Of a DNA stretch of 64,000 nt, positions 1 to 28,578 are shown one piece after another. Each line of letters starts with the position of its first letter. Position 1 is the stretch's first letter. The position numbers and the translations under genes were made by a program. The notes beneath the pieces were generated by a model. That model ran no database searches, was not told where the DNA came from, and was given only the letters and a program-made list of their open reading frames with translations. The DNA is from Moraxellaceae bacterium (GTDB lineage: Bacteria; Pseudomonadota; Gammaproteobacteria; Pseudomonadales; Moraxellaceae), in the NCBI GenBank assembly GCA_029267635.1, contig JAJUIK010000011.1, positions 1-64,000 on the forward strand, read 5' to 3'.

Positions 1-91
1 CAGCCCAATTCGATGGATAATCTTTTTCGGATTCAATCAATAATTGAACCGCTCTATCTCGGATTTCAGGGGTATATTTTGGTTTTGTCAT
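1..91 (-). CDS. IS3-family transposase OrfA, 5' part only
   Basis: The minus strand begins with ATG at 91 and reads MTKPKYTPEIRDRAVQLLIE before running off the window edge. This is the N-terminal helix-turn-helix start typical of IS3-family OrfA proteins (a K/R-rich start followed by S/T-P-E-x-R-x-R-A-V). OrfA binds the IS ends and is normally joined to the DDE protein OrfB by frameshifting; OrfB would lie outside the window. Family assignment rests on only about 30 residues, but the adjacent terminal inverted repeat supports it. Confidence 0.75.
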   Translation of the reverse strand, partial: MTKPKYTPEIRDRAVQLLIESEKDYPSNWA

Positions 92-141
92 CGGGACATT
101 CTCTCAAGAAAGTTGGTCTCCGACAAACCCGGTACGGTTCA
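1..141 (-). mobile_element. End of an IS3-family insertion sequence
   Basis: Upstream of the OrfA start, the minus strand carries TGAACCGTACCGGGTTTGTC beginning at 141 and continuing toward GGAGAC. It starts with TGA and has the look of an IS3-group terminal inverted repeat. The IS therefore enters from the left edge and ends at about 141. The other end and the target duplication cannot be seen. Confidence 0.65.
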
Positions 142-815: not shown

Positions 816-3773
816 TTAAAGATGGTACACAATCATCATATACATCAAAAATTTAAACACGCCTAAGGCTGTTGAATCTTTACACTTGAAAGAAAACCTA
901 ATTCGATTTTCATCCTCGTTTAGATTGAAATTTTGTGGCTGTAATTTTAAACCTTGTAATGTGTTTTTAAGCTGCTCCTTGCTCTGTTGCGAAAGCTCTA
1001 GATGAAGATATTTTTTGGGGAATAGGCTGTTAATAAAAGACAGAAATTTTTTTAATTGGCGTTTTTCATTAAGATCAAAAACGAACTGAGATGAATTGGG
1101 CTGAACTTTTTCAAGATAACTCGTGTAGATAGCATTGAGCTGTTTTTGATATTTTCGATGTACAGCTGGAAATCGTTTTTGGACGTAATGGATGATCTTT
1201 TTTTCTTCTTTATTGGTCGGTAGCATCGTGACTAGAGCTTCGGGAGATTTTCTTAAAAAATCTGTAGTAAACAGCTTGGAGGATTTTTTTTGGTTTATAC
1301 AGGACGTTTTTAAGTGTAAAGCTCTGGCACGAAATTTTTGCGCTATTTGTAAAGGAATGGCTTCAGGCAACAAGAGGTCACCTTCCTTGGCTGTTGCCAG
1401 AATATGATGTAGCAGCTCAAAAGTCATTTCGGAGTCATGTGCTCCCAGCATCAGTGAATCGATTGACTGCTGTTGCTTGGCTTGATATTGATGATCATGT
1501 TGCTTATAACGATCTTTAGTGAGTTGATCAAATAAAAACTGTTTGATCGCCCGTTGCTGGACAGGGTATTTAACTGCATCATTACATTTCAGAATATTGT
1601 AATAGGCCTCTTTGGAGATCGGGCTTTGTATTTCATTCAGCTGATAGCTAATAGCCAAGTGCATTAAATGCAGATAGCTTGAGCAAGTCGTTTCAGGTGT
1701 AAGGTGTCCAGCAAAATGGGAGAGGGCGTACCAAGTCTGTTGAGTATTTCTGTTTCGTAGTAACGCGTAACGGATGCGTAGTTGCTCATGCGGAGTATAG
1801 TCAGTAAATGCGTCAGCAAGTGGTGAGTGTTTTAAAATCAGATAGAGATGATTAAATGCCGAATGGCGCAGGTTATGATAAGTAAAACTGTGCTCTCCAA
1901 AAATCGGCTGGATCAGTTGTTTCAGCAGCGAGTTCACTTCATTTTCATGACTTTCCTCCAGTGACTGTTTTAAAAACAGTGGCTGCGCAAATGATTTCCC
2001 TTGTTCTTTCAGTAGACGTTTTCTATTTAGGCTGTAGGCTTTGAATGCTCCCAACTCATCTGCTTTGAGTAGGTGATGCAGAGGAATTTTCCGGTAAGCT
2101 GAAAAGCTTTTTTGATTTTTATTGCGATTGTTGCGAATGGTAAGAATAACCGCATCCTCGGTAATCAGCAGATCACGTACGAAAACATTCAATGTTTCAT
2201 TAATCCGCAACCCGGCTCTGAACCCTAGGATAAAAATCAGTTCAAACATATTCTTATCCCGAACTGAGATGCCCTGTGCATTTTCAAGCTGTTGCTTCAT
2301 GCTGTGATAAAGATGCGGCGAGATCAATGCGGTTCTGCAAATTTTTGCTTGGATTAAATTATCCAGATTTACAGTGGGTGTCTGAAAAAATAAGGTCTGC
2401 TTGTGATGAAATTCACTCAGCCGTTTTTGCACAGTTGCTCGAGTCGTTTCTTTCTTAAGCAGAAGAATTTCCCCATAGAGATCTTCAAAATCAGCACTTG
2501 AGAATGATGAAATATCTTTGTCTTGCGTTGCCTGCAGCCAATGGACTGCGAACTGTGCAAACATGGTACTCAGGGAACTTTGTCTGACAGGCTGAAAATC
2601 CGCCCGTATAAGATTGCGCTCAAGTCGTTGCTGATGCTGGACAATTTGATTGAGGCGGTCCAGTTGTGTTTGCGTTAGTTCTGAACGCAGGATGATCCAC
2701 AAAAGCAAACGTTCCAGAACAGTGGGGAGTTTTCTTTCATACAATTTAATGATTTGATCTATATAGTTTTTTTTACGAATGGCTTGACGTACTTCAGCTA
2801 AAATTTCTGCTATATCTGTTTCAATATTGGCAGTAGATAGGACTTGATGGTTTTTAATAATATTCTTAATCGCAGTAGTATGTCCTTGCCCAGATTGAAC
2901 AAAATAAGTTTCTAATTGCTTTTCTAGAGGGCTAGAACTGTAAATGTCATTTTTTAAAATGGAAATCGACATTTGATCCAAACCGCAATTTTTTAGGAAT
3001 TGCGTATAGTAAAAACCGTATTTTAAAAGGTCTTTATAACGTACCTTTTCGTCTGGAAAACATTCGGTGATGCAATCGTTGATGATTTGTTCTGCATCAT
3101 TAATATCTAAAAATAAATCAAATTCCTGATGCTTTAGTCTGTAGATCCAGCATTTAACAATATCATGCAGCACAAATGTTTTCGTATAGCTGACTGAAAA
3201 ATCCGGGTCCTTTATACGCTGATTACCGAAACGCCGATTCGGGATTTCTAGTGAAATAATATGATTCAGGTTTAAGAAATTTTGAAATTTATCTGTTTTT
3301 AAAATGATTGTTAAAAACTTTTGTAGTTCAGTATCGTTATAAATGCCATTAAATAATATTGTACTGATCAAACAGAAACCGAGTGATTGAGTCGGACTGA
3401 AGTCATTATGCTGTGCCCAGTGATCAATCATATTTTTGGCAAATTGAGTAACTCTTTTACCATGTTTTAATGTTTCAATATTTTGTTGAGGTGGAGTCCT
3501 TTCGTGCCTCACGGGTGTGGAGGGTACTGAATAGTTTTGATTCGATGACAGATTAAAACGCTTGATATATTTCGCAAATTCTAGACGTGCCATTTGGTAG
3601 CTACGGATATTGGATTTATAGTGCTCTAAAAGCTGATTATCAACTTGTTGACAAATTTCATGATAGTTTTCTGGTGTCAGTTCTTTGCATTTCTCGCTAA
3701 ATAATTTCAGAAGAAATGCTTTGTGTTTTCTATGTTTTTCTATTCGTTTTTGGGAATGTGGATGTTTGCTCAT
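816..3773 (-). CDS. Very large tyrosine recombinase, third gene of a recombinase trio
   Basis: The 985-residue protein carries a tyrosine recombinase (phage integrase superfamily) catalytic core at about residues 500-700. Box I is GFRAGLRINE (Arg near 522), box II is HNLRHSA (near 635), then HFAGH (near 687) and a nucleophile candidate in SSYLH (near 698). All core residues are therefore present. It is two to three times longer than ordinary integrases: a roughly 480-residue N-terminal region and 280 extra C-terminal residues have no recognisable domain. The start overlaps the stop of the upstream 726-residue gene by 4 bases, implying translational coupling. It is the last gene of a minus-strand operon. 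Likely role: DNA strand exchange for the element. The family is clear; the specific element type is not. Confidence 0.8.
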   Translation of the reverse strand: MSKHPHSQKRIEKHRKHKAFLLKLFSEKCKELTPENYHEICQQVDNQLLEHYKSNIRSYQMARLEFAKYIKRFNLSSNQNYSVPSTPVRHERTPPQQNIETLKHGKRVTQFAKNMIDHWAQHNDFSPTQSLGFCLISTILFNGIYNDTELQKFLTIILKTDKFQNFLNLNHIISLEIPNRRFGNQRIKDPDFSVSYTKTFVLHDIVKCWIYRLKHQEFDLFLDINDAEQIINDCITECFPDEKVRYKDLLKYGFYYTQFLKNCGLDQMSISILKNDIYSSSPLEKQLETYFVQSGQGHTTAIKNIIKNHQVLSTANIETDIAEILAEVRQAIRKKNYIDQIIKLYERKLPTVLERLLLWIILRSELTQTQLDRLNQIVQHQQRLERNLIRADFQPVRQSSLSTMFAQFAVHWLQATQDKDISSFSSADFEDLYGEILLLKKETTRATVQKRLSEFHHKQTLFFQTPTVNLDNLIQAKICRTALISPHLYHSMKQQLENAQGISVRDKNMFELIFILGFRAGLRINETLNVFVRDLLITEDAVILTIRNNRNKNQKSFSAYRKIPLHHLLKADELGAFKAYSLNRKRLLKEQGKSFAQPLFLKQSLEESHENEVNSLLKQLIQPIFGEHSFTYHNLRHSAFNHLYLILKHSPLADAFTDYTPHEQLRIRYALLRNRNTQQTWYALSHFAGHLTPETTCSSYLHLMHLAISYQLNEIQSPISKEAYYNILKCNDAVKYPVQQRAIKQFLFDQLTKDRYKQHDHQYQAKQQQSIDSLMLGAHDSEMTFELLHHILATAKEGDLLLPEAIPLQIAQKFRARALHLKTSCINQKKSSKLFTTDFLRKSPEALVTMLPTNKEEKKIIHYVQKRFPAVHRKYQKQLNAIYTSYLEKVQPNSSQFVFDLNEKRQLKKFLSFINSLFPKKYLHLELSQQSKEQLKNTLQGLKLQPQNFNLNEDENRIRFSFKCKDSTALGVFKFLMYMMIVYHL

Positions 3774-5950
3774 GCAATAGTTATTCCTGTAAACGTAGCC
3801 ATGCTTTTAAGCTCTAAGCTTTGGATCAGCTTGTCTTGTGCTGTTCTAATTTGATTTAAATCGGTTGCCTGAAAACCGGAATAGCGGTCAAACAGTTCCT
3901 GCATCGCTTCATCGTGGCCAAAGATGCCCTTAAGGACATCTTCATTGCAGTATTGTGCAAAAAAATAGCGAGAAAAATGACGGGTCCAATTGCGCTGCAA
4001 GGCTATTTCAGCACAGTATTTTTGAATATCAGCGAGCTGTAAATTTCGGATATATCCCTGAGGTTCATAAAATAAAAGAAATGGGCGTTCGCCATCGAAG
4101 ACTTCCTGAATAGCCTGTACTTTTTCTTGAGGAAGACTGGCTCTCATAAGATGCTGAAATTGTTTTAAATAATCTAGGTAATACTGTATTTCATTGCGAA
4201 GAAAATCATTAAAAGCTAGGTAGCGTCCAATGGTACCTGAATAGCGTTGCTCTTTATCCGCTGCAGCTAATATACGATTGTCGAGATCAATATAGTCCAA
4301 ATTGGGTGGAAAGGATTCGCTCGGCCGTGCAGAGGTCATGATCATGCAAACATGCCAGAGCCAGATGGAATAATGATTCAAGGTCTGAAAGGGATTAGGA
4401 TTATTCCGAACTTGCTTGTCAAGTTGGTGGAAAAAAGACTGAACGAATGGAAGATCAGGTGTCTGCTGACTACCGAAACTAATTGAAGATTTAAACTCTT
4501 CAATATAGCTACTGTCGAGCTGAGGGCAAATCAGATCAAGTGTTTGGGTATAAATATCCAGGATATCAACAATTCTCGTTGAAAAGTAATGACATGGAGT
4601 GTAGTGATTAACGCTTTCGCCATTGAGTAATTTACTTTCCAGTTCATATCCCAGTTCGTTCAACGTAATATCACTGATTAAACGAGGAAGATTTTGAGCT
4701 GTTAAATGAAAAGTAAGGCCGTCACTGATTTTACGTAAATGTTTTTTTACTTTAGAAGTAATATCAGCTTTATTCCATTTTTTTAGTTGAGAAATCTGAT
4801 AAAAATAAACTTTGGGTAAGGGGATTGTAAAAGAATTGCCTATATTCAGCATATATTCTTTTAATACAGCATCTTTAAATTTGGAGTTGTCGAAGCTTTG
4901 TCGAAAATAGCAATTTTTAGGACTAAAAGTGATTTCTTTGCTTTTTGAACTCAGACGGAAATGTTTTCGAAATACCAATAGCTCTTCATAATGTGTGAAA
5001 CTGAGCACTGAAAATAAAAGCAAGGCATGAATTGGAGAATCCTCTGCTTGTTCAAATAAAATTCGCATAATGTACTGTGCAGTCGGCAAATCAAACACAC
5101 GTGGATTCGGTTTGTTCATTAAAGCATTCTTGTTTTGATGCAGAATTTTGTTCTTGAGATTAATGACTTGAGCAGTAACAGAACGTTGCTCTAATCCAGT
5201 AAATTCAAAGTTATGATCTTCAACTGTTTCAATGATTTTATCTTCGCGTGATTGTTTAGCCGTACCCTGTTCAAACTTGGTCTGATGCGTTTGCTCATCA
5301 TCGAGAGTCATTCTTGATGTCTTGTAAACATCTGTTTGGGGAGGTTCTTGGACGCTTGAATTAACTTGACGGTGTCTTTTTTGACGCTCTGATTGAGTAT
5401 ATGCATATTGATAGATGACACGAATATCTGCCAGTTGGCCAATCTGCTCTTTACTTAGACTTTGCTGTGAACGGTTTAGCAGTTCTTTATTTTCTTGCTC
5501 TTTTTTGTTTATAAAATCAATTAGATCCTCTAATTCTAGCGGCAGAGAGGGTAAAAAATTATAGAGCCAATAATATTTTTGCTTCGTACTGGCTAAACGG
5601 AAGCGCATACAAAGATTAGCTATGGTTGTTGCGTGCTCTTTGCTGTCGAGCAATTCAATACAATGGGTATTAAAAATAGCCCACTTGAGCGCGTTTGATT
5701 GGTGCGCGGATGGCGTGTTGATCAGGGCGAAGAGATAATGAATGAGCGGATATTCACTGATTAATGTATCAGTAAGCTGTTGAGTCATAATATTTTTAAG
5801 TTCAATAACTTGTATAATCTGAATGAAATCATTGAGCTTGATAGGACTTTGATAGTCTTCCAGTTTTGCTTCAGCCAGCGATTGATAGAAGTCCCTAAAT
5901 GGTTTCAGTTTGAGCGTTTGGGTATCTTCTAAAAAGTTATATCCGTTCAT
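3770..5950 (-). CDS. Second large tyrosine recombinase of the trio
   Basis: The 726-residue protein has a C-terminal tyrosine-recombinase core: TSARPSES (Arg near 540), RHFSRYFF (His-x-x-Arg near 658), GHDEAMQELF, and RYSGF with the candidate Tyr near 689. The first ~450 residues are unrecognised and contain a polar, low-complexity stretch around residues 160-245. It overlaps its neighbours by 4 bases on both sides, so the three genes are one translationally coupled operon. Two distinct, apparently intact recombinases in one operon resemble recombinase-in-trio and Tn554-like (TnpA/B/C) organisation, although the lengths fit neither well. The two proteins may form a heteromeric recombinase. 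Confidence 0.75.
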   Translation of the reverse strand: MNGYNFLEDTQTLKLKPFRDFYQSLAEAKLEDYQSPIKLNDFIQIIQVIELKNIMTQQLTDTLISEYPLIHYLFALINTPSAHQSNALKWAIFNTHCIELLDSKEHATTIANLCMRFRLASTKQKYYWLYNFLPSLPLELEDLIDFINKKEQENKELLNRSQQSLSKEQIGQLADIRVIYQYAYTQSERQKRHRQVNSSVQEPPQTDVYKTSRMTLDDEQTHQTKFEQGTAKQSREDKIIETVEDHNFEFTGLEQRSVTAQVINLKNKILHQNKNALMNKPNPRVFDLPTAQYIMRILFEQAEDSPIHALLLFSVLSFTHYEELLVFRKHFRLSSKSKEITFSPKNCYFRQSFDNSKFKDAVLKEYMLNIGNSFTIPLPKVYFYQISQLKKWNKADITSKVKKHLRKISDGLTFHLTAQNLPRLISDITLNELGYELESKLLNGESVNHYTPCHYFSTRIVDILDIYTQTLDLICPQLDSSYIEEFKSSISFGSQQTPDLPFVQSFFHQLDKQVRNNPNPFQTLNHYSIWLWHVCMIMTSARPSESFPPNLDYIDLDNRILAAADKEQRYSGTIGRYLAFNDFLRNEIQYYLDYLKQFQHLMRASLPQEKVQAIQEVFDGERPFLLFYEPQGYIRNLQLADIQKYCAEIALQRNWTRHFSRYFFAQYCNEDVLKGIFGHDEAMQELFDRYSGFQATDLNQIRTAQDKLIQSLELKSMATFTGITIA

Positions 5951-6537
5951 GATTTAATCCCCGCAAGAATTTTATCTAACGATAATCGGCTGTTATGGGT
6001 AGTAATTAAACTTGCAGGACTCTTAGATTTTGGGAGTTCAGTGAGTTCTCGTAAAAACTCATGGCTTAAGCTTCTATGGCCAAAAACTTCTCGCAGGTGA
6101 GCTGGTAAATATTGCTCATTCAGCCAATGTGCAATGACATCTAAGCCAGTAATGGAACGATGGAGGCCGGAATTGAGCAATATTTTTACTTCGTTTAAGG
6201 CATTAATGATGCACTCATATGAATTATTTTTTTCATAAGCTCTAAACTTTAATTCGTTTTTTTCTTTTGAGAAATAACAATAGATCCATGTGAAATGACT
6301 GCTAAAAAAATAATGATCCGGTTTGTTATTGGCCATAAGAGGGATTTCTACCTTCTGTTTTAAAGCGAAATCTAAAAGGTAATCTTGCATTTTTGTACTG
6401 AGTTGTACAAATAAAGAAATCCATATTTGATATGCAGGCATGCATTTTGGATAACACATTAACTCTATGTTTTTTGCAGCTACTCGGTAATTTGGTATGC
6501 TTTTATCTTTTACAGACATACAATTATGCTTCCCCAT
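5947..6537 (-). CDS. Small third protein of the recombinase trio
   Basis: The 196-residue protein (190 if the second ATG at 6519 is used) has no confident domain. Its C-terminal part, AHWLNEQYLPAHLREVFGHRS, recalls the LGH box of tyrosine recombinases, but no full catalytic set is visible, so it may be a degenerate or accessory recombinase relative. GGGGAAG lies about 9 bases before the ATG at 6519, which makes that the better-supported start. It is the first gene of the trio and overlaps the next by 4 bases. The phased repeat array at 6729-6826 lies about 200 bp upstream. The function is inferred from context only. Confidence 0.6.
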   Translation of the reverse strand: MGKHNCMSVKDKSIPNYRVAAKNIELMCYPKCMPAYQIWISLFVQLSTKMQDYLLDFALKQKVEIPLMANNKPDHYFFSSHFTWIYCYFSKEKNELKFRAYEKNNSYECIINALNEVKILLNSGLHRSITGLDVIAHWLNEQYLPAHLREVFGHRSLSHEFLRELTELPKSKSPASLITTHNSRLSLDKILAGIKS

Positions 6538-6925: not shown

Positions 6926-7140
6926 TTGGTTGATCTTATACTTAAAAATATCAGGTTGCCAATCAACCCTGCACCTAAAACCTATCGTACAACCAATTGG
7001 TCTTCTTACAACCGAGCTTTAATAAATCGAGGAAACCTCTCGATCTGGTTTGACCCGACTACTCAATGGTATGCACAACCAAAAGGCAAACATGGTAGAA
7101 ATCAAACCTATTCCGATACGGCTATTCAATGCTGTCTTAT
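6926..7140 (+). pseudogene. IS5-family transposase, N-terminal fragment
   Basis: The frame encodes KTYRTTNWSSYNRALINRG and continues to SIWFDPTTQWYAQPKGKHGR and QTYSDTAIQCCL. This is the conserved N-terminal part of the Acinetobacter IS5-family transposases (IS1031-like group). Homology begins near 6969; sequence before that does not look like the usual start, so the left end of this IS seems lost. The frame is cut at about 7140 by the IS630-type element. The rest of the gene resumes at 8139 with roughly 45-50 codons missing, estimated from memory of intact relatives. Confidence 0.75.
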
Positions 7141-8138
7141 AGCTAAAAACAGAAAGTTTGCTACACTATAAAAAACGTTACTAGTCACTGTTATGCCTAA
7201 GCCATACTCCAATGATCTTCGTCACAAAGCTCTGGACTACTACAAAGAATGCCAGAATAAATCTAAAACCTGTACCGTTTTTAAGATCGCAAGAACGACT
7301 TTAGATCTCTGGATTCAGCTCGAACATCTTCAAGGAAATGCGAATCGACCACATCCCGAAAAAGCAGGTCGGCCCTATAAAATTAAAGACCTACAGGCTT
7401 TCAAAAGCTTTGTTGAAACAACACCATTTTCACAGGCTAAAGATCTGGTGCCATTATTTGAACAAAGATTTGGTTATTCCGTCAGCTATGCCAACATCTT
7501 ATTTGCTTTAAAAAAGCTGGGTTGGAGTCATAAAAAAAGAGTTTTCTATATCGACAAGCCAGCAAAATAGGACGAGCCGTATTCCAATGGTTCCTGCCAC
7601 AATGGAAACAGCAATATGGTGAAGAGCATATTTTATATATTGATGAATCAGGCATAAATACCAATGAAACCGCTGAGTATGGTTGGTCTGAGAAAGGAAA
7701 ACGTTGCCATGCCTTAAAATCGGGTGGGCATGGAACCAGACTGAGTATGATCAGTGCTGTTCAATCAAGTGCAGCCTTCAGATTCATTGTCCCATTGATC
7801 TTTCAGGGTTCATGTGATCGCAGCACTTTTGCTGGGTGGCTTGAATATTTGCTGAAAGGCTTACCTAAAGATAAAAATGGTCAGTACCAAAAGCATTTAT
7901 TGATTTTGGACAATGCCTCAATTCATAAAGGTGAAGAAATTGACCAGCTGGTTCTCCAATACAATGCCCGGCTTATGTATTTGCCAGCTTATAGTCCAGG
8001 TCTAAACCCAATTGAAAAAGCATGGTCTGTGCTTAAAAGAAAAGTCAGACATATTGTTAGCCAACAGCAGAAATCAGTCTTGGAAGCATTAGATGTCGGC
8101 TTTAAAGAAATGTAGCGTAGTTTATTTAACTAGATATA
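7139..8138 (+). mobile_element. IS630-family insertion sequence
   Basis: The unit of about 1 kb is bounded by TA dinucleotides (7139-7140 and 8137-8138), as expected for Tc1/mariner-IS630 elements that duplicate TA. The ends form imperfect inverted repeats: TATAGCTAAAAACAGAAAG at the left and TATATCTAGTTAAATAAACT reading inward from the right, both followed by a GCTACA motif. It interrupts an IS5-type transposase gene. Part of that gene is missing at the junction, so the insertion was accompanied or followed by a deletion. Confidence 0.75.
7193..8115 (+). CDS. IS630-family transposase made by -1 frameshifting (OrfA 7193-7570, OrfB frame to 8115)
   Basis: OrfA (125 residues, MPKPYSNDLRHKALDYYKEC...) carries the N-terminal helix-turn-helix domain. 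The OrfB frame carries the DDE catalytic core: YIDESG (near 7640), LILDNASIHK (near 7910) and YSPGLNPIEKAW (near 8000). The frames are joined by a -1 shift. A run of seven A followed by G at 7532-7539 lies in OrfA just before its stop, the standard slippery site for this family, and the shifted product reads on without a stop (KKKSFLYRQASKIGRAVFQW). The transposase catalyses cut-and-paste movement at TA targets. It appears intact and potentially active. Confidence 0.85.
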
Positions 8139-8745
8139 CCAGAAAAGTAATGATGGACTTCATCTACTCGTCGACTCTACTGGCTTGAAGTTTTTAGGTG
8201 AGGGTGAATGGAAACGTAAGAAACATCAGCCTGAATACCGTCGTCAATGGCGTAAATTGCATATCGGCATAGACGCTAAAACCCTGCAAATACGGGCTGT
8301 ACAGTTGACTACGAACAATATCAGTGATTCACAAGTACTCGGGGATTTACTTGATCAAATTCCATTTGATGAGCGGATTGATTCTGTCTATAAAGATGGG
8401 GCTTATGACACGAAATACTGCAGAAAAGTCATTTCAGATCGACAGGCATATGCGGTGATTCCGCTAAGAAAAAATGCGCAGTCTTGGAGAGATACAAGAA
8501 CCAGCTCGCTAGAAAGGAATGAGTTGCTTCGAACAGTTAAGCGTTTAGGAAGGACAATTTGGAAAAAGTGGTCTGGGTATCATCAGCGAAGCCTGGTAGA
8601 AACCAAGATGCATTGCATCAAATTATTGGGAGATAAACTCAGTGCCAGGAACTTTCAAAGCCAGGTGAATGAGATTCATGCACGTGTGGCAGTATTAAAT
8701 AAATTTACGGAATTAGGCGGACCTCATACCCAAGTTGTCACTTAA
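8139..8745 (+). pseudogene. IS5-family transposase, C-terminal fragment
   Basis: Continuing the broken IS5-type gene, the frame reads QKSNDGLHLLVDSTGLKFLG, then EGEWKRKKH, RRQWRKLHIGIDAKT, DGAYDTKYC, and RSLVETKMHCIKLLGDKL with an E-rich end. The catalytic D (LVDSTG), D (KDGAYD) and E (VETKMH) are all present. The N-terminal part is separated by the IS630-type element and some internal codons are gone, so no functional protein is expected. The right IS end should lie somewhere near 8790-8800 (TTGTGCAATAAAG), but I could not confirm an inverted repeat. Confidence 0.75.
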
Positions 8746-8995: not shown

Positions 8996-10591
8996 ATGAA
9001 TTTTATTGATGCAATAGGTGTATTGTCTAAGTCTTCTTCTTACGCTGTTTCCACAGAAAATGATCTTGATGCAGAATTGTCTTCAATAAAATCAGATCTA
9101 TATGTTGTGATGCCAATCGAAGAGCATCTTTTTGAATTGATAAATTCTGTAACTGAGGACTCCAAAAAAGTTATATTTCTTTGTGGTAGTAGTGGTGATG
9201 GAAAATCTGAGCTCTTATTGAGAGCACGAGAAAAATTTAGTCAAACCTATATAAAATTTCATTTAGATGCTACACATAGTTTTGCTCCACATGATTCTGC
9301 TGTTGATACTTTAAATAAGTTATTTGATGAGTATGAAGTTGGGAATCATTCACTAGTAATTGCAATCAATATTGGAATGTTGGGGAACTATGCAGCCGAA
9401 GCAAAAAATAAGGAAATTGGTTCTATCCTTAAAAAATATTTAGAAGAGAAACGAGCTTCTGAAGGCTATGAATTTTTAAGCTTTGAAGATTACCCAAAAT
9501 TCAAAATTACTGAAGATGGGTATGAGGCTGAATTTGTCACTAAGTTACTTGCTAGAATTACGGCTCCTAATTCATTGTTATACAAAAGTTATATTGCTCA
9601 AGTAGCTAATAAAAATAATACAAGTCAACAACAAATAAAACTTGTTAATTATAAATTGTTATGTGATCAAAATATTCAAAAAGTAATTGTCGAATTACTT
9701 TTTAAGATTAGATTGTTTAATAATCAATTTATTACTGCCCGAAATTTTTTAGATTTTATTTATGAACTTATATGCGGTAAAAAATATTTATTTGATAATC
9801 TATTTGGTGAGTCTGATAATGAATTATTGGAAAAGATAAGAGAGTTTGATCCCATACTTCTGAGAACAAAAGCTATTGATCGCTTTATCATTTCATTTGA
9901 ATTGAATACTACTAATGATAGGTTAGAAGAGTATAAAAAATATTTGCAAGATTCATTAAATATAGAAAGATTAGATAGTGCTACATCATACATTCGCTTG
10001 TTCTATTTATTGAAATTTTCTACTATTAGCAACGATTATCATCTAGATTTCAAAGAAGACTTTATAGAGAATCTACTAATAAATTACTTAGAAGTGTATC
10101 GTCATCATAGGTATTACGATGCAGATACATCCAAGCCTATACTTAAAAATTTTTATTCTAAAGATTTAATTTATGCTATAAGAAATTATATCAATAAAAA
10201 GGCACCTTATTTAGAAGAAGATCAATATTTAATTTCTAATTATGGGGATAGTCAAATTATTTCTAATTTAAAAATTACTCCTAATTTTAATGAGATAATG
10301 AAATATAGTCATCAGCAATTATGTGTAAAATTTAATGGTTTTTTGAAAATCAAAGATCATGGAAATATGAATATAACAATTGATATTAATCTATTTGAAT
10401 TGCTATTTAAATTGAAGTCAGGATATAGGCCAAGAAAAAATGATCGTAATGTGGTGGTCGTTTTAAATACTATTGTGAATAGACTACTAGTCCTTGCAAA
10501 TCAATCAACCCAAATCACAGTAAAGACCAAAGAACAGAGCTTTCGTTTAACTGTTGAAGATGATGAAATCGAAGTGGCAGGTATTAAATGA
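8996..10591 (+). CDS. dptF: DNA phosphorothioation-dependent restriction protein DptF
   Basis: The 531-residue P-loop ATPase has Walker A GSSGDGKS at residues 64-71 and the DptF-type N-terminus (MPIEEHLFELI followed by the nucleotide-binding strand FLCGSSGDGK). DptF acts with DptG and DptH as the restriction arm of type I Dnd systems, damaging DNA that lacks phosphorothioate. It is the first gene of a plus-strand operon: its stop overlaps the dptG start (ATGA at 10588). An AAGG Shine-Dalgarno-like motif precedes the ATG. The length fits the family, and strong AT bias marks it as island DNA. Family call from motif plus operon context. Confidence 0.9.
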   Translation: MNFIDAIGVLSKSSSYAVSTENDLDAELSSIKSDLYVVMPIEEHLFELINSVTEDSKKVIFLCGSSGDGKSELLLRAREKFSQTYIKFHLDATHSFAPHDSAVDTLNKLFDEYEVGNHSLVIAINIGMLGNYAAEAKNKEIGSILKKYLEEKRASEGYEFLSFEDYPKFKITEDGYEAEFVTKLLARITAPNSLLYKSYIAQVANKNNTSQQQIKLVNYKLLCDQNIQKVIVELLFKIRLFNNQFITARNFLDFIYELICGKKYLFDNLFGESDNELLEKIREFDPILLRTKAIDRFIISFELNTTNDRLEEYKKYLQDSLNIERLDSATSYIRLFYLLKFSTISNDYHLDFKEDFIENLLINYLEVYRHHRYYDADTSKPILKNFYSKDLIYAIRNYINKKAPYLEEDQYLISNYGDSQIISNLKITPNFNEIMKYSHQQLCVKFNGFLKIKDHGNMNITIDINLFELLFKLKSGYRPRKNDRNVVVVLNTIVNRLLVLANQSTQITVKTKEQSFRLTVEDDEIEVAGIK

Positions 10592-11878
10592 GCTTAGATT
10601 TAAAGTTGAAAGTCGAAAAAAACAACAGCATGGCCAAATTCTATCCGATCAGCACTCGAGGAGAAAGCAAGTTATTTAATTGGGATGCTTTAACACATCT
10701 CTTTATTTGTGAAATTTACGGTCTTGATATCTTTAAGAAGTCTAAATTAGAGCAAACGGTAAGGGATTTTGAAGATCAATGTAAATCACATTTCATTGAA
10801 TTATTAGATGATCCTCGAGCCTGGGATTATCTTTATAAAATTTATTTTGAAGAAAAAAATTTAACGTTAATTTCTCCTAAATTATGTGTCTATTCTCATT
10901 TAAATCAGATCAATAGTAAAAATATAGAGAAAAGGTTCTTAGGGCTATTAAAGACCATTCTTAAATCAGGAAATATTTATCAAGCGCATTCAAACCAACT
11001 AAATTTTTTGGAAAAAATTATCACAAAATCTTTTGATGATAAATTTACAACAAATGCTCCGAGTGAAAATGATTTCGTGAATTATTTTCCAAATCTAGCT
11101 AATATTTATGCTGAAGATTTAGAGTTCCTTACCAAGCATCCAAAATATTTTATTGAGAATATTCAACTTTTTATACAAATTTATATGTGTGTTTATACAT
11201 CACAATTATCATTAACAATCAATAGTTGGCAAAGTTTTAAAGATGAACATAATTTAGAGTGTTACTTTATTTTAGATTCTGAAAAGGCGAGTCAAGAACG
11301 TAATCTTCTTTTTCAAAGAGGTTATAGGGATGTAGAAAAAGGGTTAGGCTCAATTTTTCCAATTCTTGCAATGACTGAAAGTTTACAAAATAGTTTAGAG
11401 GGAAAAAAACCTTTATGGGAATTTTATCATCGCAGGCATGAGATCAATTTACAGGAGCTCGTCAAATATTGCCAGGATTTTGCAAATGCTCGTAAATTGC
11501 AATTAAAAAGTGAGCATATTAGCACTCATGAAGAAGCATTTATAGAGTTAGCATATTTGTTTAAAGAGCAGTTTTCTAAAACTACTGATCGATCTAGTCG
11601 AAATGATAATGTAATTAAGGATATTAAAAATATTGTATTAAAACCATTTGTACAAACACGTGGCCGGGCGGGAAGTCTATTTGTATTAAATCAAGAATAT
11701 CTTTTGTTATTAACTAATCTCGTAATTGGTGAGAAAGAGCAATTAAGGCTATATGAGTTGATAATAGGCTTTAATAAAAGAGGGATCTTTTTTGATCGAG
11801 AAAGTTATAAAGCTTTAGTTATATTTTATGAAAGATTGGGTAATATTGAAAAGTTGAGTGACAGTGGGGATGCGATTT

Positions 11879-11898
<20 letters not shown>
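10588..11898 (+). CDS. dptG: DNA phosphorothioation-dependent restriction protein DptG
   Basis: The 436-residue protein starts MSLDLKLKVEKNNSMAKFYP and lies between dptF and dptH, overlapping both (4 bases with dptF, about 20 with dptH). DptG is the small non-ATPase partner of the DptFGH restriction complex and is required for restriction in characterised enterobacterial systems. No catalytic motif is visible, as usual for this family. The call rests on position, length (family about 400-450 residues) and overall resemblance. Translation is probably coupled throughout the operon. Confidence 0.85.
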
Positions 11899-17131
<5,233 letters not shown>

Positions 17132-18242: not shown

Positions 18243-18282
18243 TACATGAAGTATAGTTCATATATGAACTATACTTCATGTA
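18243..18282. promoter_or_regulatory. Perfect 40-bp palindromic operator between the XRE and AIPR genes
   Basis: TACATGAAGTATAGTTCATA is followed directly by its exact reverse complement, with no loop, centred between 18262 and 18263. A TATACT hexamer suitable as a -10 occurs once on each strand within it (18270-18275 on plus). Two overlapping face-to-face promoters are therefore likely, and a dimer pair of the XRE protein could block both. It contains one GTTC and one GAAC tetramer. Confidence 0.85.
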
Positions 18283-18335
18283 CGTTTATTTCGGAAGCCT
18301 ATATCTTGTTTATACGAATTAAACAGGAGAAAAAC

Positions 18336-19526
18336 ATGAAATACGAATTTGAAGTAAAAACCTATAAGGATCTTGGTAATCCTTATGGTAAAGATGGTCA
18401 AAAGATGGTTTATCTTTTTGTGCACGCCAAAGATTTGCCTAAAGATTTATCATTTGGTCCAAACCCTCGTGAACAGAATATGAAAACGTCTGTTGCAAAA
18501 AAAATTATTGGAAGTTTGCATGAAGGAACTGAACAGTTCTATGTGAAAAATCGTGGGATTACAATTCATGCAAAAGATATTAAATTTATTCCGTCTAAAT
18601 CTATAGTAGAACTTGATTTGCCAGAAAATGAGATGTACGGAGTTTTGGATGGGGGGCATTCATATAGGGCTATTTTGGAAAATCGAATGATTGAGAAAGA
18701 TGGCGGAGAGGAATGGGTAAATGAATTTGTGAAAATTGAAGTAATTATCGGAGCTGAAGAGTATTTTGAGCAGTTGGCAGCATCACGAAATACATCAGTT
18801 CAAGTAACTGATAGTACAATTGCTGAATTAGAAAAAAAATTCGATTTCATTAAGGATGTCCTAAGTAAAAAACCATATTTCGACAAAATTTCATTTAAGC
18901 AAAATGAGCAAAAGGATATCGAAGTTATTGATATTCTAAGATTGATGTATGCTTTTAATTTGGAGAAGTTTCCTGATCACACTAGCGTAGGAGTATCTGC
19001 TTATACTTCTCCTAAAGCTGTTTTAAATGATTTTTTAGCTGATATAAAAAAGGCAGAAGCAACTAATTCTAAAAGTGAATATGAAGCGATTGCCAAAATT
19101 CTACCTGAAATTATTGAGCTTTATGACTTAATTGAAAAAGAAGCTGGGCTTAAATATAAGGAGGCTACTAAAACTGGTAAATATGGAGCAATTAAAGGTG
19201 TGGATGGGACTGAGGGAGATAAAAAACATTATTCAAAATTTTTCGGTGAGAAAATTGATTACAAGAGTCCAATAGGTTTTATTTTTCCAATCATTTCATC
19301 TTTTAAAGCCCTTGTAGATAAAGATGAGCATGGGAACTACAGTTGGATTTGTGATCCTAAAGAAGCTTGGGGTAAGAATGGTGCAACTTTAATGGAGGCA
19401 ACAGTTGAGCGTTCTACTTCTCTGGGATCTAATCCACAATCAACTGGTAAGGATTCGGGGTTGTGGAAACAAAATTTATCCGTGAATTTTATTACGGCTT
19501 TAACTGAAAAAGCTAAGAAAGTCTAA
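18336..19526 (+). CDS. AIPR-family (abortive infection/phage resistance) protein
   Basis: The 396-residue product starts at the ATG at 18336, preceded by AGGAGA; the open frame extends 30 codons further upstream, but that part overlaps the palindromic operator and lacks a ribosome site. Motifs fit the AIPR family: FYVKNRGITI near residue 68, then GVLDGGHSYRAI with DGGH at 105-108. This DGGH motif recalls the DGQHR motif of DndB in the same locus. AIPR proteins occur in abortive-infection loci; their biochemical activity is poorly defined. It is divergent from the XRE-HEPN pair and convergent with dndE. A link to the Dnd system is inferred from position. Confidence 0.75.
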   Translation: MKYEFEVKTYKDLGNPYGKDGQKMVYLFVHAKDLPKDLSFGPNPREQNMKTSVAKKIIGSLHEGTEQFYVKNRGITIHAKDIKFIPSKSIVELDLPENEMYGVLDGGHSYRAILENRMIEKDGGEEWVNEFVKIEVIIGAEEYFEQLAASRNTSVQVTDSTIAELEKKFDFIKDVLSKKPYFDKISFKQNEQKDIEVIDILRLMYAFNLEKFPDHTSVGVSAYTSPKAVLNDFLADIKKAEATNSKSEYEAIAKILPEIIELYDLIEKEAGLKYKEATKTGKYGAIKGVDGTEGDKKHYSKFFGEKIDYKSPIGFIFPIISSFKALVDKDEHGNYSWICDPKEAWGKNGATLMEATVERSTSLGSNPQSTGKDSGLWKQNLSVNFITALTEKAKKV

Positions 19527-19570: not shown

Positions 19571-19930
19571 TTATATATTAGCAATTAAACTTTCAGAAGT
19601 TTTATACCGAACGGACATAGCCCCAACACCTCTATGAATGTGTCCACGCATTCGATCAAGAAGTACTTTATTTTCTAAAGGTTCTTCTTGATTATCTTCC
19701 ACATATCTAAGAAGTGATAAGAAAAGATCTGTATTTTCACCTGTGAGGGTATAGGCATTGAATTCAGAGCCATCCTCATTAGGTAATGGAATATTACCTA
19801 ACGGACCTTCTTCTAATGACATCATGAGTGCAATACGACAAAGCAAATTTGGCGTTAAACCTGTACGTTGTTTCAGCATACGAAGACGAGTGGTTGCCTC
19901 AGATGAAATTTTAAGCTTGCTGTAATGCAA
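19571..19930 (-). CDS. dndE: DNA sulfur modification protein DndE
   Basis: The 119-residue basic, helical protein starts MHYSKLKISSEATTRLRMLK and contains LCRIALMMSLEEG, the usual DndE pattern. DndE is a small tetrameric DNA-binding protein, reported to prefer nicked DNA, and is needed for phosphorothioate incorporation together with DndC and DndD. It is the last gene of the minus-strand dndBCDE operon and overlaps dndD by 20 bases. The length is typical (about 110-130). Confidence 0.9.
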   Translation of the reverse strand: MHYSKLKISSEATTRLRMLKQRTGLTPNLLCRIALMMSLEEGPLGNIPLPNEDGSEFNAYTLTGENTDLFLSLLRYVEDNQEEPLENKVLLDRMRGHIHRGVGAMSVRYKTSESLIANI

Positions 19931-21914
19931 TTCTCTTCTCCGTATTGGTGCGTTTCAGATCAGTAAAGTAACCTGTCAATGCCTGAGTAGATGCCAACTC
20001 ATGATTGTATTCAAGTAGATAACTTTCAGAAATGAACTCATCTAACTGGTTCACATAAAGATCATCAATTTCAGTATCTGTTGAAAGAATAATGACTTGA
20101 TGGCTAACGTGAGGGAAGTAAAACTTCATGAGGTTGTCACGGTGTTCACGATCTAAACGGCCAAGTGGTGTATCAACAATCATTGGCAAATGGCGACCAC
20201 TTGTTTTAGCTAGAGACCATAACATGGCAATCGCATAAATTTGCTTTTCACCAGCAGATAAAGCTGACTTTTCAACGACTTTACCATTCGCTTTAATCAA
20301 ACGTGTGTTGAAGGTTTTAGCATCAATCTGTAAATCAGTAATGAAGTTACGTTTACGCAATAATGAATTGAAAATTTCTACAAAGTTTTTGCGAACTTGA
20401 GTAATTTTCTGTTCCAGTAAGGCAGTCTCAAAATCAATAAGCGCTTTAATGCTTTTTGCGGCTAAAGAGTTCTTATGATTTTGCAATTCAAACTCGGCAA
20501 TGGCTTCGCTAGCTACTTTTAAATTCCGTTCAGCCGTCACAACTTCCCAGCTAATTTTACGGCGTTCTTCTTCTTTCTGATTTAAGATAAGATCAAGCTC
20601 ACCGAGTTTACGCTCTTTCTGTAGCAGCTCATCAAGATAAGCATTTGAGTCTTCCGCATTTTCAGCACGGGCAATTGAAAACTCTGTTGCTTCTTTTTCC
20701 TGATTTAAAATTATAAAACGTTCATATAACCCTTTGACTTGCTGTTTTAGCTCCGCATCTAAGCTCAATAGTTTAGCCAAGGTTTGCTTGGGCTCAGTTA
20801 ATTCACCAAATGCTTTGTGGGGACTTAACTGTGGTTGCTCATTAAAGTAACTGGCAAGGAACTCATTGAGATTTGTCCAATGATCTTCTTTCCAGAGTTC
20901 TTTTTTCTGGATTGAACTATTTTGGAAGGTTGTAAGTATTTGCTCAAAAAGTTGACGATTTGAAGATTGATCTGCTGATGAACCTTCTAACTGTTTTGTA
21001 AACTTAGCTATGAGCTTCGGTGCAAATAAGAAGGGAAGTAGTCCATTTGCTAAATTGACCAGTTCTTGTTTAGATACATTAATCTCTTTATTCAGTTGAG
21101 AGAGTTTGGCTTTGAGTTGGTCATATTCCAACGCAATAGCACCACCTTCTGATACAAAACGAAGTCTTTGACGTTCAATGTTTTTTAATAATGCTTGGTG
21201 TTCAAATTTAATTCGGGCGTATTCATTATTTAAGAGCTCTTCTTGAACTTTGAACTGCTCTACTTGTTGGGTAAGGAGATCAACATCATTTTTTTCAGCA
21301 TCACCAGATTTATTACGACTCAAATATGAATGTAAATCTAGGCGTAACTTTTCTATTAAATCAATGCCTAGCAGGTTTTTAATAGCATCTGATAAAGCAG
21401 CATTGTTATCTTCTGCAATATCTTGAATTTTCTCACCATCAAAGAAGAATAGCTGAGAAACTCCGATTGGGATCAATTCCAGTAGAAAATTTTCCCATTC
21501 TTGCTTTGGTACAGAGGTAACTGTTTCACCGTTTTTATGTAAATCTAAATTTTCATGTACTTGTCCATCGGACCCGATTGTCCAAGAACGGCAAACGGTA
21601 AATTCAGCAGGAATACTGCCTTCTGTATAAATGAACTTAAGCTCAATGCTGGACGTACGTTCAGGGTGATTTTGATTGGTCTTACTGAAAAGATACTGAT
21701 GATATTCTTTGTTACTAATCCCTAAACCTAATGCACGCTTACCGTATAAGGCCAGGCGTACGGAGTCTAAGAATGTAGTTTTACCAGCACCATTTCTGCC
21801 GCCAATCAGAATAATTGGCCGACTAGTAATAGATGATTTTTTAGGTTCAAGTGAAAATTCAGTATGCTGACTGTATAAACCAATATTATCTAAAATTAAA
21901 GATTTGATAATCAT
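19911..21914 (-). CDS. dndD: DNA sulfur modification ATPase DndD
   Basis: The 667-residue SMC/Rad50-like ATPase has Walker A GGRNGAGKTT at residues 38-47, long coiled-coil segments in the middle (about 200-500), the ABC signature LSAGEKQ near 551 and Walker B MIVDTPLGRLD near 578. DndD hydrolyses ATP and is thought to open or nick DNA during sulfur insertion with DndC and DndE. It overlaps dndC by 4 bases (21911-21914) and dndE by 20. Length and motif order match the family. Confidence 0.93.
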   Translation of the reverse strand: MIIKSLILDNIGLYSQHTEFSLEPKKSSITSRPIILIGGRNGAGKTTFLDSVRLALYGKRALGLGISNKEYHQYLFSKTNQNHPERTSSIELKFIYTEGSIPAEFTVCRSWTIGSDGQVHENLDLHKNGETVTSVPKQEWENFLLELIPIGVSQLFFFDGEKIQDIAEDNNAALSDAIKNLLGIDLIEKLRLDLHSYLSRNKSGDAEKNDVDLLTQQVEQFKVQEELLNNEYARIKFEHQALLKNIERQRLRFVSEGGAIALEYDQLKAKLSQLNKEINVSKQELVNLANGLLPFLFAPKLIAKFTKQLEGSSADQSSNRQLFEQILTTFQNSSIQKKELWKEDHWTNLNEFLASYFNEQPQLSPHKAFGELTEPKQTLAKLLSLDAELKQQVKGLYERFIILNQEKEATEFSIARAENAEDSNAYLDELLQKERKLGELDLILNQKEEERRKISWEVVTAERNLKVASEAIAEFELQNHKNSLAAKSIKALIDFETALLEQKITQVRKNFVEIFNSLLRKRNFITDLQIDAKTFNTRLIKANGKVVEKSALSAGEKQIYAIAMLWSLAKTSGRHLPMIVDTPLGRLDREHRDNLMKFYFPHVSHQVIILSTDTEIDDLYVNQLDEFISESYLLEYNHELASTQALTGYFTDLKRTNTEKRIALQQA

Positions 21915-23404
21915 GGATTAACTCCAGCGTTATTTAATAAATCTAACTGACCTGAAGAAATTTCTTCTGCGAAAGATGATTCCTCATCCTCTATTTCAAT
22001 GATTTCATTGATATCTTGATCAGAATTGCTAGCGGCGAGAATTGTGGCTAAATCTCTCCATTCTTCATTGAGCACTTTGCTTAACTGGCTATGAATGTTA
22101 TGGCGTCGTTTAAGACCATGGGAAGCTTTTTCAACTCCAATCAGTTTCACCATTAGTTCCGTTGGAATGTCATGTTGTTTACAGATTGAATCAAGTAAAG
22201 CAAAGTCTTGTGTATTATATAAGACGCTATCCTCAATTTCCCAATCTAAATCGACTTCTAAGGTGTCTCTTACAATTTGTGGAACTGAATCAGCCCAATC
22301 TCCACTTTCAGAACGCCATAAACGCCGAATTTCATGTAATTCTGCAGGATGAATCAGAACCGGTGCTTCACCAATCGGTGCTTCAGTTTGTACTTGTTTT
22401 TGGACTTCTAAGAGTTTTCTGAGAAGTTCTTTACGGAATTCGAGTTTATAAGGACCAGGTACTAATTTTCCATTTGCGTGGTTAAAGGCAACTTGACCAT
22501 TACGACGTTTAAATTCACGATAGATAAATTTTTTTTCAGGATCTTGCGTTGAAGAAAGTAAATCACGGTACTCCAGTAAAGGCTCTAACCACTCTTCACC
22601 AGATTCAACCATAGCCTCCATTGACTTGTCCTGTTGGACTACTGTGCATACCCAGCAACCAAAGCGTGAATTACCGCAACTCGGCGTAGTTTTGTCTACT
22701 ACGAGAGGGCACTCACCAGCTTGAGCATTTCTATACATAGTTACAAGTTCACGGTTGTCATTATTCCATGGAGACTTGTTCTGTAATAAATAATTCCATA
22801 CATCATCAGTAGTGAATGCTTCAATTGGAGCAAATACAAACGCATTTAGTAAAGACGAGTGACGGGCAAGTTTTGTGCCTTTAATTTTATGCATTGCGAT
22901 CACTTGTGCACGGGTCGCACTTTCTGCAGAACGCACACCTAAGACAACAACCACCTCACCAAATTCAGCTACACGTTGTGTAATAAAGTCATTTGCCGGT
23001 TCAATCTTAAGTCGTTCAGTACACCAGCGGAATTTATTGCTTGGTGCAGGATAGCCACGGCCAATCAGGTTTACCCAAAATGAACGTTCTACTCGAGGGC
23101 TGACCTTTTGTACAATAAAAGGCATTCCTTGTTCATTAGACTTTTGCTGAATATTTTCTAAGTTTTTATCAATATATCGAACAATAATAGGTGTTTCTAC
23201 AAGAGTGTCAGAACTAATTACATATATAGGTTTTTGTCTTTGCTCACTCGGTAGTTTCGCTACAGCATTCCATACCAGTTGCAAAGCACAAGTTGAGTCC
23301 TTACCACCAGAGTAGCCAACGACCCATGGTCTTTGATCTGATAAATAGACTTCCTGGATAGATTCATATACATCTTTTAAAGAATTGGTCTCAAAAAAGC
23401 TCAT
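21911..23404 (-). CDS. dndC: DNA phosphorothioation sulfurtransferase DndC
   Basis: The 497-residue protein belongs to the PAPS-reductase/ATP-pyrophosphatase group. The PP-loop SGGKDST is at residues 32-38, and a cysteine cluster (CPLVV...PSCGNSRFGCWVC, about 231-252) is suited to the [4Fe-4S] cluster known in DndC. DndC activates the DNA backbone with ATP and transfers sulfur delivered by a cysteine desulfurase. The gene lies directly after dndB and overlaps dndD by 4 bases. No dndA desulfurase gene is in the window; IscS is known to replace DndA in other gammaproteobacteria. Confidence 0.93.
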   Translation of the reverse strand: MSFFETNSLKDVYESIQEVYLSDQRPWVVGYSGGKDSTCALQLVWNAVAKLPSEQRQKPIYVISSDTLVETPIIVRYIDKNLENIQQKSNEQGMPFIVQKVSPRVERSFWVNLIGRGYPAPSNKFRWCTERLKIEPANDFITQRVAEFGEVVVVLGVRSAESATRAQVIAMHKIKGTKLARHSSLLNAFVFAPIEAFTTDDVWNYLLQNKSPWNNDNRELVTMYRNAQAGECPLVVDKTTPSCGNSRFGCWVCTVVQQDKSMEAMVESGEEWLEPLLEYRDLLSSTQDPEKKFIYREFKRRNGQVAFNHANGKLVPGPYKLEFRKELLRKLLEVQKQVQTEAPIGEAPVLIHPAELHEIRRLWRSESGDWADSVPQIVRDTLEVDLDWEIEDSVLYNTQDFALLDSICKQHDIPTELMVKLIGVEKASHGLKRRHNIHSQLSKVLNEEWRDLATILAASNSDQDINEIIEIEDEESSFAEEISSGQLDLLNNAGVNP

Positions 23405-24523
23405 TTAGACCGTCTCCTTAGTAAGTGTATCTTCTTGGCTTGCATGTAGTGAGTTGAATAGTAGATTTTCGACTCGTTGTGCTTCAGGACTCAACGAAAT
23501 CCCTAATGTTTTCTGAAGATGATTGGTGACTAAAATGAGATTATTGCGTGATTTGTTTATTTTTCCTGCAACCAATGCACGACCATACCAAACTTTTAGA
23601 TTATTTCTAGACCAGTCAATATAGATTAATTTATTGAGTTTAGATTCCCAGTTGTCTGGATATTGTGTGAGTAAAATATTACCTAATTTACCGAGAGCCT
23701 GAACTGCAATGCCATGAGCATGAATATAATTGTTCCTTAACTCAGCTGCCGTGATTTTACCTTCTAAAAGATTTAACCAGCCTGGAATATATTCAATTAC
23801 ACAGCTCCAGAATTTGGTAGCAATTAGAACCTGTTCTTCATGGGTAGCTTCTTGTGGAAAATCACTTAAGAGTTGTTTAGTTGCCTGATGTAAGGAACTA
23901 AATGTAAATAAATTAGTTGTTCTGTTAGATAAACTGGATTTTTCAAAGTCGGTAAATTCTCTGAATAGTTCAATATTTTCAATTACCGCTTTAGTTATAT
24001 TTGATTGTTCATCTCTATGGTTAAAGAGTAACTTAATAGATTGAGCTGGCTTTACTGCATGCATGTTTAGGTCAGCGAACATTTGCTGAGAACGTTTTAG
24101 CCCCTGGTCCGCATAAACCACCACAGAAATAGTTTCATTTCCTAGATGAGGGCGGTGCTTCAGCGCTTCCTCTATAGCCGCTCTTCTATGTTGGCCATCA
24201 TTAATTAAAACAGTAGCATCCATTGAAATTTTTAACTTACCTAAATTACTTGAAAGATCATTAGGCTCAAATACAACTTCTCCATCTACACATGCACAAA
24301 GAGACGAAAGTATGTATTCGTCAGGATTATCAATAATATATCTACTTATTTGAGGGATTCTTGTTTTATTTAATGTGCGTTGAGCACGCATTGAGGGTGG
24401 TAAAGAGTCATCATCAAATTTAAAAAATTTAGGTACAACCTTGAGAGGAACCATAATGATGTAAAAGGCTTTACGAGCTTGTAGGCCTTGTATTGCTATG
24501 AATTCGAACCAATTCCCGTCCAT
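23405..24523 (-). CDS. dndB: DNA sulfur modification protein DndB (DGQHR domain)
   Basis: The 372-residue protein has the family hallmark INDGQHRRAAIEEA with DGQHR at residues 109-113. DndB is dispensable for modification in studied systems but acts as a transcriptional regulator of the dnd operon and influences which sites are modified. It is the first gene of the dndBCDE operon, with dndC starting right after its stop. Upstream, a TATAAT -10 candidate and two direct repeats suggest an autoregulated promoter. Confidence 0.9.
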   Translation of the reverse strand: MDGNWFEFIAIQGLQARKAFYIIMVPLKVVPKFFKFDDDSLPPSMRAQRTLNKTRIPQISRYIIDNPDEYILSSLCACVDGEVVFEPNDLSSNLGKLKISMDATVLINDGQHRRAAIEEALKHRPHLGNETISVVVYADQGLKRSQQMFADLNMHAVKPAQSIKLLFNHRDEQSNITKAVIENIELFREFTDFEKSSLSNRTTNLFTFSSLHQATKQLLSDFPQEATHEEQVLIATKFWSCVIEYIPGWLNLLEGKITAAELRNNYIHAHGIAVQALGKLGNILLTQYPDNWESKLNKLIYIDWSRNNLKVWYGRALVAGKINKSRNNLILVTNHLQKTLGISLSPEAQRVENLLFNSLHASQEDTLTKETV

Positions 24524-27821: not shown

Positions 27822-28049
27822 ATGATTATTTCAAACTTGGCGGTTTTATTAGCAGAAAGGAAACTGAAGGTCGCTGATTTGGTGAGGAGTACTGGAATTA
27901 ATAAATCCACTTTACACAAACTTTATAATGATGAATCTGTACGGATTGATTTTGAGACAATTGATAAGATTTGTACGGCATTAGATATAGAAGTAGGTGA
28001 TTTATTGATTTTTAAGAAAAGTTATAATAATCAAAAGGATGGTATCTAG
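27822..28049 (+). CDS. Small XRE/Cro-type repressor of the integrase module
   Basis: The 75-residue HTH_26-like protein has an ordinary Cro/C1 helix-turn-helix: LAVLLAERKLKVADLVRSTG, INKSTLHKLYNDESVRIDF and ALDIEVGDLLIF. It is divergent from xis-int. Likely a repressor controlling integration and excision genes, comparable to satellite or prophage repressors. Confidence 0.8.
   Translation: MIISNLAVLLAERKLKVADLVRSTGINKSTLHKLYNDESVRIDFETIDKICTALDIEVGDLLIFKKSYNNQKDGI

Positions 28050-28383: not shown

Positions 28384-28459
<76 letters not shown>

Positions 28460-28502: not shown

Positions 28503-28578
<76 letters not shown>

Follow-up and report, generated by a model that had tools for sequence, protein, structure and literature searches.

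A conserved operon encoding a giant tyrosine recombinase and two partner proteins, probably an undescribed module of tRNA-integrating islands in Moraxellaceae

Introduction

Several described groups of mobile elements encode tyrosine recombinases together with partner proteins. Strand-biased circularizing integrative elements (SE) of Gammaproteobacteria, which form a strand-biased circle with a 6-bp spacer, carry the operon intA-tfp-intB-srap, which encodes active tyrosine recombinases, the recombinase-fold protein Tfp without catalytic residues and a small fourth protein (PMC10214605). The GInt elements are delimited at their 5′ end by the four-gene operon ginABCD (PMC5385486), recombinase-in-trio (RIT) elements have three tandem active recombinases, and Gamma-Mobile-Trio islands are marked by a three-gene signature with a recombinase and by defensive cargo (Mahata et al. 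2024, cited in PMC12715929). Islands integrated at tRNA genes and carrying IntBPP-1-type (DUF3596) integrases have also been described (PMC8138268), and GI1 of Acinetobacter baumannii NCIMB8209, a 39.7 kb island at tRNA-Gly-GCC, contains type III restriction-modification (RM) and toxin-antitoxin (TA) systems (PMC7392541). Here we report on a three-gene operon, hereafter the trio (P1, P2 and P3), found in a 64,000-nucleotide stretch of a Moraxellaceae bacterium (assembly GCA_029267635.1, contig JAJUIK010000011.1, positions 1 to 64,000 of the forward strand). This stretch, hereafter the window, begins at the first base of contig 4 of the source genome. No description of the trio was found in the open-access literature, and it is a real and conserved, probably undescribed module of tRNA-integrating islands.

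Results

As a distal module, the trio belongs to a genomic island at tRNA-Gly(GCC) that carries DndBCDE-DptFGH (Table 1). Its minus-strand genes are transcribed in the order P3 (196 aa), P2 (726 aa) and P1 (985 aa), with an overlap of 4 bp at both junctions; the coordinates, sizes and overlaps given in a preliminary description of the locus were exact. Full trios were present in other Acinetobacter genomes at about 61–80% identity, and the gene order P3-P2-P1 was retained down to about 20% identity. The median ratio of non-synonymous to synonymous substitution rates (dN/dS) was 0.17–0.20 for eight close trios. By these sequence comparisons, the trio genes are under purifying selection and the conservation of the operon is well beyond chance. 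Relatives of P2 occurred in 122 of the 299 sampled Moraxellaceae genomes. Besides Acinetobacter and Psychrobacter, some other Gammaproteobacteria also have the trio in their islands and plasmids; Vibrio, Aeromonas, Halomonas and Idiomarinaceae yielded related trios or relatives of P1. On Acinetobacter plasmids, the middle gene (P2) is annotated as a hypothetical protein. Phages yielded no P1 relative, and only two contigs of IMG/VR were matched.

The tyrosine-recombinase domain of P1 was matched by XerC (E=2.6e-9) and, over the cut-off in a whole-genome search, by Phage_integrase (E=1.8e-7). Matches to XerA/Int chains of the PDB ranged from E=1.4e-7 to 0.003, the best being XerA (1.4e-7). Residues R523, K555, R636, H637, H690 and Y700 were invariant in 17/17 diverse aligned relatives, while H633 was kept in 16/17, the sole exception being a His-to-Tyr replacement. 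As read from this alignment, P1 is a tyrosine recombinase with the R-K-HxxR-H-Y set.

No convincing match for P2 or P3 was found in Pfam, NCBIfam or PADLOC. The predicted model of P2 (mean predicted local distance difference test score, pLDDT, 79.5) gave Tn1549 Int, integron integrase and XerH as its best fold matches (E 0.03–0.4, probability up to 0.97), none significant by E-value; the model is suggestive, and P2 looks like a protein sharing the tyrosine-recombinase fold. The copy in the window carries R542, H658-x-x-R661, H679 and Y690. Among 37 aligned relatives, R542, K566, H658, H679 and S691 were invariant, R661 was replaced by Gln in eight, and position 690, which adjoins the invariant S691, was highly variable (Y10/F10/M8/N4/H2/S2/Q1). 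Most of the catalytic signature is thus retained across the P2 family, whereas the Tyr is not; since Tyr690 is unconserved, P2 is probably a non-cleaving partner. The preliminary description had credited both large proteins with the catalytic residues; this holds for P1 across its 17 relatives and for this copy of P2, but not for the P2 family (Tyr in 10/37). In Idiomarina, an Idiomarinaceae metagenome-assembled genome (MAG) and Pseudidiomarina (L175, L176, L178), P2 and P1 are naturally fused in one open reading frame (ORF) of 1,924–1,963 aa, which argues that both proteins act together. A natural inversion inside the trio was observed at L042 (G287 C7, 8414-11927), where a segment with P3 and residues 1–433 of P2 is flipped relative to the remaining P2 and P1. 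P3 was recognised as a recombinase by none of the scans (Pfam, NCBIfam, fold search); the best fold matches of its model were ParB/Noc/Spo0J chains (ParB/Noc N-terminal domains), with a best E of 0.018 and none significant.

As the preliminary description had noted, the protein sizes differ from those of the related multi-recombinase systems that were checked. The trio resembles SE in its overlapping operon, in which P2 is comparable to Tfp and P3 to the small fourth protein; unlike the trio, the SE of pAQU1 encodes proteins of 545/614/671/161 aa (intA-tfp-intB-srap), and SE genes lie at the left end of the element. Comparison of the pAQU1 SE with the trio gave an hhalign probability of 0.1 for P2/Tfp and P1/IntB, and hmmsearch was not significant for all four SE proteins. 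SE membership was rejected, the pAQU1 proteins showing no similarity to P1–P3. With GInt, the trio shares several recombinases, one of them degenerate, plus a small protein, variable cargo and ends with repeats, but it has three genes with the small one first, and its islands also have an ordinary integrase at the tRNA. The comparison with GInt covers architecture only, and that with Tn554 family scans only: no TnpA/TnpB/TnpC match was obtained for P1–P3 in Pfam/NCBIfam, the Tn554 sequences themselves not being compared directly. The trio is not an RIT, because no scan recognised P3 as a recombinase and the Tyr of P2 is unconserved. The three-gene signature with a recombinase and the defensive cargo recall Gamma-Mobile-Trio, but the proteins and their sizes differ. 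The GmtY model NF040693 (441 positions, cut-off 340 bits) matched none of P1–P3, nor did any GMT-named NCBIfam model (the GmtX sequence itself was not compared), and trio profiles run against a real GmtY (441 aa) and the adjoining partial GmtZ-like ORF gave nothing above noise. The membership in Gamma-Mobile-Trio raised in the preliminary description was therefore not borne out. The window island fits the tRNA-integrated islands, with which it shares the tRNA-Gly(GCC) site, the integrase and the defence cargo; the table entry for GI1 in PMC7392541 names no giant recombinase trio, the GI1 sequence itself not being checked.

The ordinary integrase of the window island (INT) lies about 0.9 kb from the tRNA-Gly. 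In complete related loci, the order is tRNA-Gly, INT, a DUF1376-sized gene, a 248-aa (DnaC-like) gene, variable cargo, P3-P2-P1 and a tRNA copy. The far end is a 46-49-bp copy of the tRNA-Gly 3′ half, and in some islands hipBA sits between this copy and the trio. The plan and the attachment-site (att) repeats were conserved in G060, G147, G219, G223, G235 and G283. The islands in related genomes measured about 26 to 54 kb (37.5 kb for G223, locus L099, of the type strain A. towneri DSM 14962), and most of those inspected contained the DnaC-like and DUF1376-sized genes. As judged from these loci, the island family uses the tRNA-Gly(GCC) site, with INT at the tRNA end and the trio usually toward the other end. 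A short gap between the flanking genes, i.e. an empty site, was found in G217, G227 and G203. The left and right flanks of G217 aligned to the occupied G060 at 97% and 94%, respectively, meeting inside the tRNA, so the comparison of empty and occupied loci proposed in the preliminary description could be made, and both kinds exist. The integrase at the tRNA, the far tRNA fragment in relatives and the empty sites make it well supported, on sequence grounds, that the window element is a tRNA-integrated genomic island. Its right att end is lost beyond the contig break; the first 141 bp of the window are 100% identical on contig C5, which places the break within repeated DNA, probably an insertion sequence (IS).

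The association between INT and the trio was evaluated from the positions obtained in P2 and INT searches of the sampled Acinetobacter genomes. A close INT was present in 29 genomes, 27 of which also had P2. Both were located on one contig, 5-45 kb apart, in 23 genomes, and were co-directional in 22 of these (p=6e-6 versus random orientation, with kinship among the genomes uncorrected). INTs 95-96% identical were paired with trios only about 25% identical, several of which were also found in islands ending in a tRNA-Gly fragment. The two modules thus reassort, while the islands with these INTs still have a trio. Psychrobacter has the trio in the opposite orientation, with the tRNA-Gly core upstream of its small gene. 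Two small islands (G054, G213) have the right end and neither INT nor the trio. The 12.4-kb circular record pALWED3.4 (NZ_CP032289, L179) has INT and the tRNA-Gly 3′ half, and no trio. In this plasmid, from a permafrost A. lwoffii, INT, DUF1376, the ATPase and cargo are joined to the tRNA-Gly 3′ half inside a hlyD gene; the plasmid therefore resembles an integrase island that has been circularised.

The trio was also found at other sites. An integrase and the trio are neighbours at tRNA-Gly or tRNA-Val in L112, L135, L109, L178 and the Moraxella locus L167. At tRNA-Met, the trio is found with a different integrase (Arm-DNA-bind_3). On the A. johnsonii plasmid NZ_CP140004, the trio occurs together with an Arm-DNA-bind_3 integrase and a 46-bp piece of tRNA-Met. 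The match between this plasmid and an A. lwoffii contig (95.1%, 8,947 bp) stops exactly at the att base; the A. lwoffii copy adjoins a complete tRNA-Met, with yebC further on. The alignment of these two copies is best read as showing the plasmid and integrated forms of one module. Plasmid-borne trios lie near rep genes.

The island right end (about 90 bp) with the core recurs away from tRNA-Gly, also beside hipBA. On plasmids of A. towneri, the right end and its 19-bp core are located 247 bp upstream of P3, and no INT of this family was found there at E<=1e-40. Four tandem 168-bp copies of the right end plus core were observed on a 395-kb Acinetobacter plasmid (L182, NZ_CP039144 91229-105328, at 7083-7605). 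The right end was joined at the core to locus-specific non-tRNA DNA in L181 (7001-7200), L183, L184, L190, L197, L199, L203, L210, L211 and L216. In G330 (L220, 17145-17250), tandem islands at tRNA-Gly were seen: a right end with core is followed by a second island with its own right end. An integron-like cassette reading of the recurrent right end and core was tested and dropped, because the right end is mostly single and ends islands with and without the trio, and because many copies are plain tRNA-Gly att sites. Likewise, bounding of the trio by the core on both sides was rejected, as no core lies upstream of P3 in the close Acinetobacter group.

The cargo of the window includes both DndBCDE and DptFGH of the Dnd/Dpt phosphorothioation defence, and no DndA was found among it. 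DptH (11858-17131; 1757 aa) has a low-complexity stretch near residues 1340-1375. Of the other islands, G235 also has a Dpt/Dnd-like set, and restriction enzymes of type III and type I are among the cargo of two more. Transposase insertions between P3 and the cargo were observed in the window, L031, L034, L037 and L061, some at an identical point; in the window, the transposase pieces are interrupted by a second transposase at 7193-8115. A hipB remnant, suspected by eye near positions 690-790, was unsupported on checking.

Table 1. Features of the trio, the island and its borders in the window (att, attachment site)
Feature	Position	Strand	Remarks
Repeat at contig start, probably IS end	1..141	.	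100% copy on contig C5
P1, giant tyrosine recombinase (predicted), 985 aa	816..3773	-	catalytic set R523, K555, H633, R636, H690, Y700
P2, tyrosine-recombinase-fold partner (predicted), 726 aa	3770..5950	-	catalytic Tyr unconserved across family
P3, small first gene, 196 aa	5947..6537	-	model mean pLDDT 85.7; weak ParB/Noc-like fold matches, none significant
IS-like transposase gene pieces, between trio and cargo	6926..8745	+	families judged from reading only
Cargo: DptF, DptG, DptH	8996..17131	+	
Cargo: unknown protein, 260 aa	17170..17952	-	
Cargo: AIPR-domain protein	18246..19526	+	
Cargo: DndE, DndD, DndC, DndB	19571..24523	-	
DnaC/IstB-like ATPase, integrase-end module	24697..25443	-	same place in pALWED3.4
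DUF1376 protein, integrase-end module	25454..25990	-	
INT, ordinary integrase, 395 aa	26296..27483	-	Arm-DNA-bind_2 (DUF3596), SAM-like and catalytic domains
Stretch resembling helix-turn-helix gene of pALWED3.4	27822..28006	+	69.5% over 187 bp
tRNA-Gly(GCC) at island end	28384..28459	-	shared att core ACCTTGCCAAGGTTGGGGT at 28413-28431
Second tandem tRNA-Gly(GCC), outside island	28503..28578	-	

Discussion

With moderate confidence, we regard the trio as a heteromeric accessory module for tyrosine recombination in genomic islands and plasmids that integrate at tRNA genes, a role that we infer from its genes and their surroundings. INT would carry out integration and excision at the tRNA, P1 would cleave DNA, P2 may be a structural or DNA-binding partner without cleavage, and P3 may be a small DNA-binding helper. 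Once excised, the circle would have the trio on one side of the joined attachment site (attP) and INT on the other, and integration would put them at opposite ends; the trio would most likely assist or direct a recombination step on the circular or the integrated form. Several observations weigh against this assignment. The trio yielded no recombination site of its own, and the resemblance of the P3 fold to ParB is weak. The trio is nearer the integrase end at the tRNA-Met loci, and on some trio-bearing plasmids INT was not found nearby, or not found by a strict search. Furthermore, no trio was detected in G079, an island with INT and a right end of the same kind. Somewhat more tentatively, the trio may represent an undescribed class of system, in which a giant cleaving recombinase, an obligatory Tyr-less sister (in some cases fused with it) and a small ParB-like DNA-binding protein serve plasmids and tRNA-integrating islands with different integrases across Gammaproteobacteria.

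The main rival to accessory recombination is a multimer-resolution or segregation module, in which the Xer-like P1, together with P2 and the ParB-like P3, would turn dimeric circles into monomers. The best family match of P1 (XerC/XerA), the ParB/Noc/Spo0J chains among the fold matches of P3, the replication-type genes of the islands (DUF1376, DnaC-like) and the relatives living on plasmids near rep genes all speak for it, but the ParB matches are not significant, no cer/dif-like site was found at the trio and 5.7 kb is large for a resolution system; we consider this explanation unlikely, if deserving attention. It is rather improbable that integration at the tRNA-Gly core is the work of the trio itself and that INT has a secondary part. 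The trio-side end is indeed joined at the core to tRNA-Gly or unrelated DNA, and the A. towneri plasmids have the core close to P3 and no INT of this family by the strict search, but the same right end and core are present in the INT island of G079, which lacks the trio, and in the small islands with neither gene (G054, G213), and pALWED3.4 has INT and the tRNA-Gly 3′ half but no trio. The preliminary description had proposed that the trio may be a mobile element that helped to build the defence island. It does belong to a mobile defence island; a part as its mover is unsupported, because an arm-type integrase adjoins the tRNA att and both G079 and pALWED3.4 do without the trio.

Insertion of an autonomous Tn554/GInt/SE-type transposon into the island would account for several recombinases in one operon, for the occurrence on islands and plasmids and for the reassortment with INT. 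This origin is improbable: the trio is constrained in where and in which direction it lies with respect to INT and att, neither ends nor target duplications were seen around it, and there is no similarity to SE proteins. A variant of Gamma-Mobile-Trio (GmtXYZ), suggested by a three-gene set with a tyrosine recombinase on islands rich in defence genes, is barely credible against the negative GmtY and GmtZ-like comparisons and the size of GmtY given above.

A widespread module has been named and mapped, and it has been tied to a chromosomal defence-system hotspot with defined ends and empty sites. The reassortment of INT and trio, together with the plasmid and integrated tRNA-Met forms, provides ready material for testing trio-integrase cooperation. 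If the trio cooperates with ordinary integrases, this would be an uncommon form of tyrosine recombination, performed by cleaving and non-cleaving sister subunits.

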